A stretch of DNA of 64,000 nt. Origin: Candidatus Sulfopaludibacter sp. SbA3. GTDB lineage: Bacteria; Acidobacteriota; Terriglobia; Bryobacterales; Bryobacteraceae. The stretch lies in contig CAMDCN010000014.1 in the NCBI GenBank assembly GCA_945890485.1, forward strand, positions 62,001 to 126,000. Reading direction: 5' to 3'. Positions 33,584 through 38,777 of this stretch are shown in pieces. Within the stretch, counting starts at the first letter, position 1. Every line of letters starts with the position of its first letter. The position numbers and the translations under genes were made by a program. The notes under the pieces were generated by a model. That model saw only the letters and a list, made by a program, of their open reading frames with translations. It ran no database searches and was not told the origin of the DNA.

Positions 33584-35101
33584 TTGGAACCTCTCTACAT
33601 CCGCGTCCACCCGGACGACAACGTCGCGATCATCGTGAACCCGGAAGGGGTGCCTAGCGGCGCACGCTTCCCCAATGGGTTCGTTTCGTCAGAGGCGATT
33701 CCGCAGTCGCATAAGATCGCCTTGGCCGAGATGGAACCGGGCGACCCGGTGATCCGTTACGGCCAGGTGATCGGCCATGCCACGCGCGCCCTGCCCATCG
33801 GGTCTTGGGTTCGAGAGGATTGCCTCGACCTACCGGTTCCCCCCGCACTCAGCGAGCTCGCACTCGCTACCGCTCCGCCTCCCGCCGCGCCGCCGTTGCC
33901 CGAATACACCTTCGAGGGTTACCGCAACGCCGACGGCACCTACGGCACCAAGAACATTCTCGGCATCACGACCACCGTCCAGTGCGTAGCCCCTACCGTC
34001 GACTACGCCGTTCGCAAGATCAAAGCCGAGATTCTACCCCGCTATCCCAACGTCGATGACGTCGTCGCCGTGACCCACTCCTACGGCTGCGGCGTCGCTA
34101 TCGACGCTCCTGGCGCCGCTGTCCCCATCCGCTCCATCCGCAATCTGGCACTGCATCCGAACTTTGGCGCCGATCCGCTCGTCGTCAGCCTGGGCTGCGA
34201 GAAGCTGCAACCGGTCCGGCTCACCATCCCCGGCCTGCAACCGGCCGACCATGTCATCCGCCTGCAGGACAACCAGGGCTTCGCGGCAACGGTCGCCCGC
34301 ATCTGCGAAGCCGCCGAGAAGCGGCTCCAAGTTTTGAACCTACGCAAGCGGGTTCCCTGCCCCGCGTCCGGTCTCGTCGTGGGCTTGCAGTGCGGCGGTA
34401 GCGATGCTTTCTCCGGCGTCACCTGCAACCCCGCCGTGGGCTATGCGGCCGATCTCCTCGTCCGCGCCGGCGCCACCGTGATGTTCAGTGAAGTCACCGA
34501 AGTCCGCGACGCCGTCCATCTCTTAACGCCTCGCTGCTCGACTCCCGATGTCGCCCGCGCGCTCATCCGCGAGATGCAATGGTACGACGACTATCTCGCC
34601 ACCGGCCGCGCCGACCGGTCGGCCAATCCCACGCCGGGCAACAAGCGCGGCGGCCTGTCGAACGTTGTCGAGAAGGCCCTCGGCTCCGTCGCCAAATCCG
34701 GCACGTCAGCTCTGCGCCAAGTGACCACCCACGGCGAGGTGCCGACTGAGCGCGGCCTGATCTTCGCCGCCACCCCAGCCAGTGACTTCATCTGCGGCAC
34801 CCAGCAACTGGCCGCCCACATGAACATGCATATCTTCACGACGGGCGAAGGAACGCCCTATGGCCTCGCCATGGCGCCGGTGATCAAGGTCTCCAGCCGC
34901 ACCGCTCTCGCCGAGAAATGGCCGGACCTGATCGACATCGACGCGGGCCGCATCGCCACCGGCAACGCCACCATCGAGAGCGTCGGCTGGGAGCTATTCC
35001 ACCTGATCCGCGACGTGGCCAGCGGGCGCAAGCAGACCTGGGCCGACCACTGGGGCCTGCACAACTATCTCGCGCCCTTCAATCCCGGGCCGGTTACCTA
35101 G
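33584..35101 (+). CDS. uxaA: Altronate dehydratase (UxaA family)
   Basis: A 505-residue dehydratase of the UxaA/GarD family. An N-terminal SAF domain (residues 1-95, [14 protein letters not shown]) is followed by the core: [47 protein letters not shown] and [18 protein letters not shown]. UxaA turns D-altronate into 2-keto-3-deoxygluconate in galacturonate catabolism. D-galactarate dehydratase is the alternative, but the convergent uxaC next door favours altronate. The start is TTG at 33584. The stop overlaps uxaC by four bases. Confidence 0.85.
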
Positions 35102-36501
35102 ACGCCCAAGTTCAAGTAGTCACTCGCGTTCTTGTAGCAGATGTTCTTCACCATGCTGCCGACCCAGTCCTCGCGGTCGGGCAGCAGGCCGTTGGTGACA
35201 TCGTTGCCCACCAGATTGCACAGCGTGCGCCGGAAGTACTCATGGCGCGGATAGGAGAGGAACGAGCGCGAATCGGTCAACATGCCAACGAATCGCGAGA
35301 GCAGGCCGCAATTGGAAAGCGCGTTGATCTGGAGTTCCATCCCTTCTTTCTGATCCAGGAACCACCAGCCGCTGCCGAACTGCACTTTGCCCGCGATGCT
35401 GCCGTCCTGGAAATTGCCGATCATGGTAGCGAAGGCGTAGTTGTCCACCGGGTTGACGTTATAAACAATCGTCCGCGGCAACGTGTTGTCCTGATCGAGC
35501 CGGTCGAGGTAGGCGCCCAGGGCGTCCGCCTGCGACCAGTCGCCCATCGAGTCGAAGCCGGAGTCCGGTCCGATGGTTTTAAACAGGCGCGTGCTATTGT
35601 TCCGCCGGGCACCCAGGTGCAGTTGCTTGGTCCAGCCCTTCGCCGCATCCAACTGGCCGAAGAACAACATCAAGTTTGAAGCGAACTGCAGGTGCTCCGC
35701 CGGCGAGGCGGCCTGCCCATGCAGCGCACGATCAAAGATGGAAGCAGCTTCGGCTTCTGAACAGAAGTCGGCGTAGCAGTGGTTTAAGCCATGGTCGGAA
35801 AGCCGGCCGCCGAGCGAGTGGAAGAAATCGTGACGGCTCTTGAGCGCGTCGAGAAAGCTCGAATAGCTATTGATGTCGACGTTTGCCGCGGCGGCGAGTT
35901 TGCTCACCCACGGCAAGAAGAGTTCGGGCAGATGGACGTTCAGCGCCTTGTCAGGCCGGAACGTTGGGAATACCTTCGTCGCCAGACCGGAAGCGGCGAT
36001 CTGCTGGTGGTAGCGGAGGTCGTCGGTCGGATCATCGGTCGTGCACGTGGCGCGGACGTGAAATTTGTTGAAGATGCCATGAACCCGAAGGCTGTCATCG
36101 GCCAGTTGCTCGTTCGCGCGGTCCCAGATGCTCTGGGCCGTCGTGCCATCAAGTAGTTCGTCGATGCCGAAGTAGCGTTTCAGTTCGAGATGGGTCCAAT
36201 GGAACAGCGGATTGCGGAGCGTGTGGGGCACCGTGCGAGCCCACGCTTCGAACTTCTCGAACGGCGTCGCATCGCCGGTGCAGTAGCGCTCGGCCACGCC
36301 ATTGGCCCGCATGGCGCGCCATTTGTAATGGTCGCCTTCGAGCCAGATCTCGAACAAATTGGCGAACTGACGATTCTCCGCGATGTCCTTTGGCGGCAGA
36401 TGGCAGTGGTAATCGAGAATCGGCTCGGGCGCCGCGTAGCTGTGATACAGGTGCCGCGCCGAGGCGGTGGAGAGGAGAAAATCGTCGTGGATAAAGGACA
36501 T
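35098..36501 (-). CDS. uxaC: Glucuronate/galacturonate isomerase
   Basis: A 467-residue amidohydrolase-fold isomerase of normal UxaC length. The start [18 protein letters not shown] and the metal-binding HxH in [18 protein letters not shown] are characteristic; [12 protein letters not shown] and [20 protein letters not shown] follow. It converts glucuronate to fructuronate and galacturonate to tagaturonate, the first step of hexuronate breakdown. It is convergent with uxaA, so the two are separate transcription units. Confidence 0.95.
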
Positions 36502-36507
36502 GGGACT

Positions 36508-36513
36508 AATCTA
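36508..36513 (-). promoter_or_regulatory. Candidate -10 box (TAGATT) of a leaderless uxaC promoter
   Basis: On the minus strand TAGATT ends six bases before the uxaC ATG. The intervening AGTCCC holds no ribosome-binding site, so the message would begin at the start codon. Confidence 0.45.
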
Positions 36514-36526
36514 CGAGGATGCCACA

Positions 36527-37816
36527 CTAGAACAGCGAGAGCTGATCGCCTTCGCTGACGAAGGCTTTGAATTCGCCGTCGCCGTCCACGACCCACGCTA
36601 GTCGCGACCTCGCGAAGTCCACCGTGGCACGGTCTCCGCGGCCCTCCGCTTCCGCCTCGAGGCGTTGCATCACGGCCACCGCATCCCGCGGGCGCGCCCC
36701 TTCGGAGTAGCAGTCAAACGCGGCGCGGCAGAGGTCGACAACCTCCTCCCAAGCGCTGACGAAGCCGAAATCCAGGGCCGCCTCCAGTTCATAATCTACT
36801 TCCGCGCAAGCGGCAGGCCGGGCGCGCCAATGCCGGAAGCGGCCGAGCACGGCATCGAAATGGCGACCAGGCAGGTCCGGACTCACCTCGATTGGCTGCA
36901 CCAGACGATACCGGTCCCGCACCGTATCGAGTAACTCGGCGGCGTCGCCCGGAAGCGCCTGCGGCTCGCCCGCAATTTCGCGCGCCAAGCTCAACGGAAA
37001 GTCGGATGCCAGGCAGACCGACATCGCCTGCAACAGCCGCGAGTCGTTAACCGATGGCAGCGGGAGCACGTCCTCCAGGTCGAGCCACTCGCCTTCGCCC
37101 ATCAGTTCCGGCGCCGTAACCAGCACCGAGTGCGGCGCGCCGGGCAGGTCCAGCGGAGCACGCAGATCATCCAGCACCAGGAGGCTTCGCCCCGCAGGCA
37201 TCCGGCGCTCGATCTCGTTCTGGATCGACTCGGTCGAACGCCGTCCGCAGCCGATCCAGATTGTCGATTGAAAATGGCCTCGGGCGGCGTAGGCAAACGC
37301 CTGCGCCATCCGGCTTTTGCCGGTGGCCGGCCTGCCGGTAATCCAATAGGTGCCCGCCCCATCCACCAGCACGGACCACAATTCCTCCGGGACCTCCGCC
37401 TGTGCCGGAGCCACGCTCGACACCTGCGTCCGCGGCAACAGCGCCACCACCCAGCGTTCGAGCGCCCGCTGATCCGCCGGCCAGCGGAAGTAGCTGCGAC
37501 GTTCGAATACGGGCGGGTAGGCGCGGGCGCCACACTGCACATAGGCAAGGGGCTTCGGGCCGTTGTAATCAATCAAGCTGCCCCAATACTGGCGCGAAGG
37601 TTGCGGCGGCATGGCGTCCGGATGCAGCAAGACGATCACTCCCGTCGCATCCAAACCCTCCTCCCAGGTCTCTGAAACCGGCACCTCGTCACTGGCGATG
37701 GAGTTCAAACGCAAATCCGGGAAACGCTCCAGCCGAGGGCGAACGAGCGCCTCGGCCGCGGAGGCCCCGCATAGGCTGAATACCGGAGTAGCAGACATCC
37801 CTTCAGTGTCCCGCAC
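36527..37816 (-). CDS. TIR-like domain plus P-loop (STAND-type) NTPase with C-terminal sliding-clamp motif
   Basis: A 429-residue protein I cannot name. Residues 10-127 read like a TIR domain: VFSLCGASAAEAL, TWEEGLDATGVIVLLHPDAM, SRQYWGSLIDY, and FERRSYFRWP. The usual TIR glutamate after the S-x-x-W element is missing. A P-loop follows (GRPATGKS, 161-168) and a Walker B segment (LLVLDD, 212-217), as in STAND/NB-ARC ATPases. The region from about 290 on is helical, without clear sensor repeats. The protein ends in DQLSLF; QLSLF (425-429) matches the bacterial beta-clamp-binding consensus. ATG 37816 or 37798 may be the start. Confidence 0.55.
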   Translation of the reverse strand: MRDTEGMSATPVFSLCGASAAEALVRPRLERFPDLRLNSIASDEVPVSETWEEGLDATGVIVLLHPDAMPPQPSRQYWGSLIDYNGPKPLAYVQCGARAYPPVFERRSYFRWPADQRALERWVVALLPRTQVSSVAPAQAEVPEELWSVLVDGAGTYWITGRPATGKSRMAQAFAYAARGHFQSTIWIGCGRRSTESIQNEIERRMPAGRSLLVLDDLRAPLDLPGAPHSVLVTAPELMGEGEWLDLEDVLPLPSVNDSRLLQAMSVCLASDFPLSLAREIAGEPQALPGDAAELLDTVRDRYRLVQPIEVSPDLPGRHFDAVLGRFRHWRARPAACAEVDYELEAALDFGFVSAWEEVVDLCRAAFDCYSEGARPRDAVAVMQRLEAEAEGRGDRATVDFARSRLAWVVDGDGEFKAFVSEGDQLSLF

Positions 37817-37829
37817 CCATCCAATTGCT

Positions 37830-37835
37830 TACAAT
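37830..37835 (+). promoter_or_regulatory. Candidate -10 box (TACAAT) of a leaderless promoter
   Basis: TACAAT ends six bases before the ATG at 37842; CGCGGT in between contains no ribosome-binding site. Confidence 0.5.
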
Positions 37836-37841
37836 CGCGGT

Positions 37842-38777
37842 ATGCTCCGCCGACACGTTCTTGGTCTTCCGCTGGCCGCCTTCGCGCAATCCCCCGGGCG
37901 GAAAGTAAAATCGCTCCGCATTCAGATCCTGTCCACCATGCTGGCCGAAGCCGGGATCGGCGAATGGGGCTTCGCCGCAATGGTGGACGTTGATGGCAAG
38001 CGGATTCTGTTCGATGCCGGAACGCGGCCCAATACGGTGCTCGAAAACGCGAAGACGCTGAAGGTCGATCTCGCCGTCGACGAGATGATGCTCAGCCATT
38101 TCCATGGCGATCACAACGGCGGCCTGCTCACCTTGCGCAAGGCCGTGGCTCCAGCGCTAGGCCGCTGCTACGTGGGCGAAGGCATCTTCCTGCCGCGGCG
38201 CGCGAGTCAATTCGATGAACGCGAAGGCAACGCCACGCTACTGCTGAAGCCTGCCTATGAAGCCTCGGGCGGGAAGTTCATTTCGATCGACAAGCCAACC
38301 GAAATCCATCCCGGCGTCTGGCTCACCGGCCCCGTACCGCGCAAGTACCCGGAACGGAATTGGAGTGGATCGGGCCGCATCGTCATGGCGAAGGGACAGA
38401 TAGAAGACACGGTACCCGAGGACATGTCGATGGTCTTCGATACGGAGGCGGGCCTCGTGGTCCTTTCCGGCTGCGGCCATTCGGGCATCATCAACACGCT
38501 CGAACACGCGCGGACCACCATCCGGCAGGCGCCGATTCACGCCGCGATCGGCGGGTTTCATCTGTTCGACGCCAACGACCAGACTTTGGCCTGGACCGCG
38601 GGCAAACTCCGCGAGTTCGGCTTGGCGAACTTTGTCGGCTCGCATTGCACCGGCATCGAGCCGGTCTATCAATTCCGCGAAAGGATAGGATTGGGCCGGA
38701 AGCACAGCATCGTCGGGGCAGTGGGCGCTGGGTTCGATTTAGCCCGGGGCATTCTGCCAGGTCGACTTGCGCGGTAA
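37842..38777 (+). CDS. MBL-fold metallo-hydrolase (secreted; DHPS/RFA-P synthase-like family)
   Basis: A 311-residue metallo-beta-lactamase-fold protein with a short Tat-like leader (MLRRHVLGLPLAAFAQSPG). Metal ligands: MLSHFHGDHNGGL, VLSGCGHSGIINT and GGFHLF, with a last histidine in GSHCTG. The pattern resembles the archaeal/bacterial 7,8-dihydropterin-methyl-aminobenzene-phosphate synthase-like group, whose bacterial members are mostly uncharacterised. The frame is open far upstream but overlaps the divergent TIR-like gene, so the ATG at 37842 is chosen. Confidence 0.85.
   Translation: MLRRHVLGLPLAAFAQSPGRKVKSLRIQILSTMLAEAGIGEWGFAAMVDVDGKRILFDAGTRPNTVLENAKTLKVDLAVDEMMLSHFHGDHNGGLLTLRKAVAPALGRCYVGEGIFLPRRASQFDEREGNATLLLKPAYEASGGKFISIDKPTEIHPGVWLTGPVPRKYPERNWSGSGRIVMAKGQIEDTVPEDMSMVFDTEAGLVVLSGCGHSGIINTLEHARTTIRQAPIHAAIGGFHLFDANDQTLAWTAGKLREFGLANFVGSHCTGIEPVYQFRERIGLGRKHSIVGAVGAGFDLARGILPGRLAR

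Follow-up and report, generated by a model that had tools for sequence, protein, structure and literature searches.

A gene from the soil bacterium Candidatus Sulfopaludibacter sp. SbA3 encodes a protein in which a TIR-like domain is joined to a C-terminal peptide, QLSLF, that is predicted to dock on the sliding clamp, DnaN. The gene lies in the window, the whole stretch of 64,000 nucleotides that was analyzed. Across homologues, the clamp motif has been retained while both enzymatic motifs of the family, the TIR catalytic Glu and the NTPase P-loop, have decayed. With some reservation, we think it probable that the protein is a clamp-docked, mostly noncatalytic adaptor of TIR and STAND descent that would act at replicating DNA, its binding to the clamp being a prediction. 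A family joining a TIR-like domain to a tail predicted to dock on the clamp is undescribed in the literature that we searched.

The gene and its product

The open reading frame (ORF) is real and occupies positions 36527 to 37816 of the minus strand, encoding 429 amino acids when counted from a GTG codon. The ATG at 37798 is the likelier start because five relatives (77 to 85% identical) align from the same Met; the gene then comprises 423 codons and a TAG stop (36527 to 37798), and the residue numbers and minus-strand coordinates given below follow this start. As the original prediction had it, the frame ends in QLSLF directly before the stop, the C-terminal end reading EGDQLSLF with TAG immediately after it. 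The host genome amounts to 7.1 Mb in 35 contigs, and the nearest named relatives of the gene are acidobacterial, on five MAG contigs, one of them titled Bryobacteraceae.

Searched alone, the window protein gave only subthreshold, P-loop-type matches in Pfam, NCBIfam, and PADLOC and no match in the PDB. AlphaFold confidence was low (mean pLDDT of 43 for the whole protein and 35 for the TIR part), and the models are too poor for any structure to support a fold. Sixty further homologue loci were retrieved, and 59 chosen intact homologues were aligned; counts given below as fractions of 59 apply to these rows.

A TIR-like domain that has mostly lost the catalytic Glu

The N-terminal domain, residues 1 to 122 (37433 to 37798), had been called TIR-like by eye, and homology bore this assignment out. 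The window protein by itself had no TIR match and stayed below the Pfam TIR cutoff; 47 of the 59 homologues match TIR_2 (PF13676) at an E value of ≤0.01, the best at 2.8e-14. With a profile derived from the 52 rows that lie outside the window's genus, residues 5 to 120 of the window protein scored 71.0 bits, compared with a best score of 8.8 bits among 2147 shuffled or neighboring proteins. The family profile also matched TIRAP adaptor TIR domains in the PDB at an E value of 4e-6, and hhalign aligned the family to 13 nonfamily acidobacterial TIRs at 99.3% (E value, 5e-20). With the TIR region of the window clade alone, the hhalign result was 40% (E value, 2.9e-4), against 0.1% for the control. 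A TIR fold at the N terminus is thus supported by profile comparison.

The suspicion that the catalytic Glu is missing also proved correct. A helix C Glu, present in all 13 control TIRs and taken here to be the TIR catalytic residue, pairs with Tyr71 of the window protein (37586 to 37588) in the hhalign alignment, and the same column holds Glu in 8 of the 59 homologues. Four homologues (L055, L081, L089, and L112) keep both this Glu and the P-loop; with eight members retaining Glu and four retaining both motifs, part of the family may be catalytic. A well-supported separate clade keeps both (L081:4001-5398, L089:3608-4987, and L112:3839-5221), and its tails are of the hexamer type (QMLLPM, QMMLPM, and QLSLPF). 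This clade may resemble an ancestral, possibly catalytic form.

An NTPase core whose P-loop is not family defining

Residues 131 to 245 (37064 to 37408) resemble the core of STAND/NB-ARC NTPases. The claim of a P-loop with a Walker B segment holds for the window protein, in which both can be read directly: Walker A is GRPATGKS (residues 155 to 162; 37313 to 37336), and the Walker B-like segment is LLVLDD (residues 206 to 211; 37166 to 37183), or LLVLDDL if residue 212 is included. The claim of an NTPase does not extend to the family, since the P-loop is absent from 42 of the 59 homologues, in which none was found within approximately 40 to 60 residues of the site. GK[ST] is kept at the P-loop in the other 17, and the strict GxxxxGK[ST] pattern is kept in 8. 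The P-loop states require four changes on the tree, and the window's genus contains homologues of either state. Nucleotide binding by that site is thus dispensable for the common role of the family, in which the clamp motif is retained.

The kinship of the core itself comes from the homologues, 13 of which match NB-ARC and 14 AAA_16 (E value, ≤0.01), and from residues 131 to 231 of the window protein, which score 59.3 bits against a profile built without same-genus rows. The window protein did not reach the curated profiles (16.2 versus 32.6 bits for AAA_16 and 12.3 versus 23.5 bits for NB-ARC).

The original prediction noted no visible sensor repeats, and this has to be amended. Residues ~252 to 405 (36584 to 37045) form a conserved, predicted-helical, TPR-like region that scores 93.5 bits in the window protein against a profile built without same-genus rows. 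One of the 59 homologues has a TPR_7 match here, and a block spanning approximately residues 341 to 400 reaches a pLDDT of 67 to 89 in the otherwise weak model.

The C-terminal clamp motif is conserved

The predicted β-clamp-binding motif, QLSLF, occupies residues 419 to 423 (36530 to 36544). We examined the last 20 residues of 92 homologues with a readable C terminus; L015 and L027, whose contigs end, and L062, L098, and L114, whose C termini are open, had been dropped. The 92 tails include near relatives, one exact duplicate (91 are unique), and one sequence interrupted by an in-frame stop; what is counted is sequences, not independent events. The canonical motif was defined as QΦx[LM][FL] or QΦx[LM]x[FL], following the available excerpt of a clamp review (PMC11139829), in which the pentamer and the hexamer are two known forms; the relaxed form is our own definition.

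The canonical motif is present in 65 of the 92 homologue tails, a high-affinity version (QLxLF or QLxLxF) in 42, and the relaxed form in 86. The corresponding counts are 1, 1, and 6 in 142 complete neighboring proteins; 27, 1, and 52 in 1841 internal 20-mers; and 136, 19, and 810 in 9200 shuffled tails, the last figure showing how loose the relaxed pattern is. Among other acidobacterial TIR proteins, 1 of 18 tails has the canonical motif, and that one lies within a helix-like stretch; these 18, of which 2 are incomplete, are the TIR-type proteins among the 44 matches of the phylum search other than the host's own.

Both pentamers (QLSLF) and hexamers (QLSLPL, QLALDF, and QMLLPF) occur across the homologues. 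Twenty-one tails have the relaxed motif only, the departures including Phe at position 4 and Gly, Pro, or Gln at position 2; these tails may be weak clamp binders. Six have no motif in frame. L087 and L102 look frameshifted, a clamp-motif tail being readable in another frame just downstream, and we read L078, L082, L113, and L115 as truncated, shifted, or remote sequences. The original prediction had set homologues lacking the pentapeptide as the evidence against it: what stands is that some form of the motif is kept in 86 of 92, but 6 have none in frame, and many of the others carry a hexamer or a variant instead of the exact pentapeptide.

The 59-row alignment has only four invariant columns, P95, R204, L206, and Q419, the last being the first residue of the motif. 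Omitted from it were 33 of the 92 sequences. Six of these have no motif in frame; the other 27 are either near relatives or incomplete, and each carries the relaxed motif at least. The linker that precedes the motif, residues 405 to 418 (36545 to 36586), is acidic and consists of variable columns. The sequences show the gene to be under purifying selection: compared with seven relatives, the whole gene has a dN of 0.084 to 0.265 and a dS of 0.92 to 1.57, residues 401 to 417 have a dN of 0.08 to 0.68, and the motif, with five codons only and hence few sites, has a dN of 0 in five of the seven comparisons. Up to 14 residues trail the motif in homologues (L071), an argument against a C-terminal signal of fixed position.

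An in-frame QLxLF followed by a stop is not rare on its own; the 7.1-Mb genome holds 6 instances of the loose pattern CARYTNNNNYTNTTYTRR, fewer than the 16 of the reversed pattern. The only long ORFs of the host genome that end in the loose pattern are the window gene and a gene that we named MlaD-like by eye. The product of the latter (L150, G000:C7:87121) ends in QLKLF, probably by chance. For the window motif, a chance origin is excluded because the motif is conserved across homologues.

The host genome encodes a DnaN that aligns end to end with solved clamps, and its cleft segments, TDSHRL, FPDFERV, and VMPMRI, are recognizable in that alignment; we assume that E. coli residue numbers can be mapped onto them. 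The host protein has Ser where solved clamps have the Gly of TDGHRL, presumably Gly174 in E. coli. It is very probable that the tail docks on the sliding clamp.

Distribution and genomic context

When a 20-row family profile was searched against 237 genomes of the host's family, 110 genomes in 37 of 76 genera had a match, so the gene is not essential there. It is carried by 17 of the 19 same-genus genomes, and the two without it are 83% complete. Within the host's order, 83 of 150 genomes match, many weakly as generic TIR or NTPase matches; a strong match outside the host's family (G061, f2) scores 349 bits, and its contig ends before the tail. A sample of the phylum yielded matches in 33 of 396 genomes, the best at 62 bits apart from the host's own, and other phyla were scanned with the window protein alone, a query that finds close relatives only. 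In the genomes sampled, the family has so far been seen in no order but that of the host. Searches of plasmid, phage, and viral collections with the window protein found no relative, which argues against a mobile element.

The genes that flank the window gene recur on both sides in four close relatives with long flanks (L002, L003, L005, and L006), which suggests that the locus was inherited vertically. Compared over positions 35098 to 37860, the window lacks about 1.2 kb that these four have downstream, between the homologue and a gene that we named uxaC-like by eye; it also lacks about 1.6 kb that they have upstream of the homologue.

A same-strand gene lies within 60 bp upstream in 38 of the 74 loci with a called upstream neighbor. 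Pfam was run on 104 of 147 neighbors. The 40 scanned among 47 same-strand upstream neighbors include nine O-methyltransferases, four Sua5/YrdC proteins, four proteins with an enolase-like C-terminal domain, and two MGMT proteins; the 64 other neighbors are mixed in family. Upstream neighbors differ between genera and indicate no shared pathway. In one group of genera, a gene that is probably this O-methyltransferase lies directly upstream on the same strand in nine loci (L079, L087, L090, L092, L095, L097, L099, L103, and L106); its called overlap with the homologue is about 10 bases, as if in an operon. At two other loci, a gene that probably encodes an O6-methylguanine-DNA methyltransferase is found 2 to 10 bases upstream on the same strand (L050:1002-1490 and L057:998-1486). 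This DNA repair neighbor was seen in this group only. We also considered a link to a second, mutasome-like DnaE and rejected it as uninformative, since, by our count, 177 of 195 family genomes have at least two alpha-subunit matches; the 18 genomes with one such match include carriers and noncarriers alike.

A probable clamp-docked adaptor and its alternatives

We infer that the window protein binds DnaN and serves as a scaffold, and we favor control of replication or repair over defence. The C-terminal motif, on its flexible acidic tail, would dock in the peptide cleft of DnaN, and the TIR fold (mostly without its Glu), the STAND-derived core, and the helical region would together form a binding scaffold. 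Such a scaffold could bring a partner to the clamp, or keep one away, at replication forks or on fresh DNA. The P-loop that is intact in the window clade may gate binding, and most relatives would do without it. For the window protein itself, with Tyr71 in place of Glu, a scaffold role is likely in preference to one in NAD cleavage.

A variant of this proposal starts from members that retain Glu and the P-loop. Ancestral proteins of this kind might ride the clamp and turn fork trouble into a TIR-made signal, the window clade being a noncatalytic descendant that kept the docking and signals by binding; we regard this history as conceivable and rather doubtful. The original prediction went further toward immunity, proposing a defence or DNA stress role at forks or in phage replication. 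A TIR/STAND protein tethered to the clamp would then watch forks or phage replication and trigger an NAD-consuming or signaling TIR response. The combination of TIR and STAND is typical of immune proteins, and L055, L081, L089, and L112 have kept both enzymatic motifs. The defence proposal nevertheless found no backing, and we consider surveillance of this sort improbable: Glu is kept in only 8 of 59 homologues and is Tyr71 in the window protein, searches with that protein turned up no plasmid, phage, or viral relative, and 17 of 19 same-genus genomes keep the gene. PADLOC gave no convincing model for the 59 homologues (Cas3fv and Cas3e matched one member each, at E values of 4e-4 and 6e-4), and for the window protein it gave mad8 at an E value of 0.033, in the P-loop stretch.

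Among the neighbors, no defence theme appeared in the families listed, which were the 25 best represented of 44 and of 79 in Pfam and the 25 best represented of 68 matched models in PADLOC, the latter run on the 64 neighbors other than the same-strand upstream set. Isolated defence genes may lie among the families ranked lower. The PADLOC matches listed involve two proteins each and are mostly to PD-T4-6, with mad6, C3a189, and MkoA in addition; we took them for generic kinases, since Pfam Pkinase is matched by two of these 64 proteins. A defence island is therefore unsupported, both by the neighbors listed and by defence models run on the homologues.

The protein might instead regulate replication initiation or clamp occupancy, tying the access of DnaA or a polymerase to the loaded clamp. 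Hda, which is one of the AAA+ proteins and has a motif of the QLSLPL type, and YabA, a regulator of clamp occupancy and initiation, are the models for such a role. The tail of L065 carries the very sequence QLSLPL, and Hda is described in the available excerpt of the clamp review as a clamp binder whose motif sits in a disordered N terminus (PMC11139829). The window protein nevertheless scores only 12.9 bits against the Hda equivalog model, whose cutoff is 194.8, the P-loop is not conserved, and the gene is present in 110 of 237 family genomes; we give this idea little credence. Least likely of all is that the peptide binds something else, such as a protease adaptor, and merely resembles a clamp motif: short motifs are degenerate and 27 of the 92 tails are not canonical, but the invariant Gln and the occurrence of both pentamers and hexamers conform to the rules for clamp motifs, and residues may trail the motif, unlike in a C-terminal degron.

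Significance and comparison with known systems

If the adaptor proposal is right, it would provide the first known link of TIR domains with the sliding clamp of bacteria and would put a TIR domain onto DNA that is being replicated. TIR and STAND folds have, moreover, stayed under selection after loss of their enzymatic motifs while the short docking motif was retained, which points to scaffolding, not killing, as a use of a bacterial TIR domain. One peptide and one protein would suffice for direct tests. We know of no earlier link between TIR domains and this clamp, and none was found in the open-access literature that we searched, which holds few preprints or subscription papers. One jumbo-phage paper, in the portion available, contains the terms TIR and sliding clamp in an unrelated context, and the best 20 of 126 clamp papers found do not mention a STAND NTPase.

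Among clamp partners, transposases are reportedly included. Pol II, Pol IV, Pol III alpha, and Hda carry a clamp-binding peptide on a tail, as the window protein is predicted to do, and the excerpt available places the peptide at the C terminus for Pol II, for Pol IV, and for one of the motifs of Pol III alpha (PMC11139829). Unlike those proteins, the window protein matches no polymerase, nuclease, or Hda model above the cutoff, and a TIR plus STAND-like body is absent among the clamp partners described in that excerpt. A toxin/antitoxin system of S. pneumoniae is likewise a nonreplisome system reported to target the clamp; the available text mentions no TIR domain, and the likeness is one of description (PMC12795458). 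On the side of the body, 47 of the 59 homologues belong with the TIR_2 family, from which the window protein differs in having Tyr where the catalytic Glu would stand. With STAND/NB-ARC NTPases the likeness lies in the NB-ARC and AAA_16 matches of the homologues and in Walker A and B of the window protein, and the family is set apart from them by loss of the P-loop in 42 of 59 homologues, a short TPR-like region, and a terminal clamp motif.
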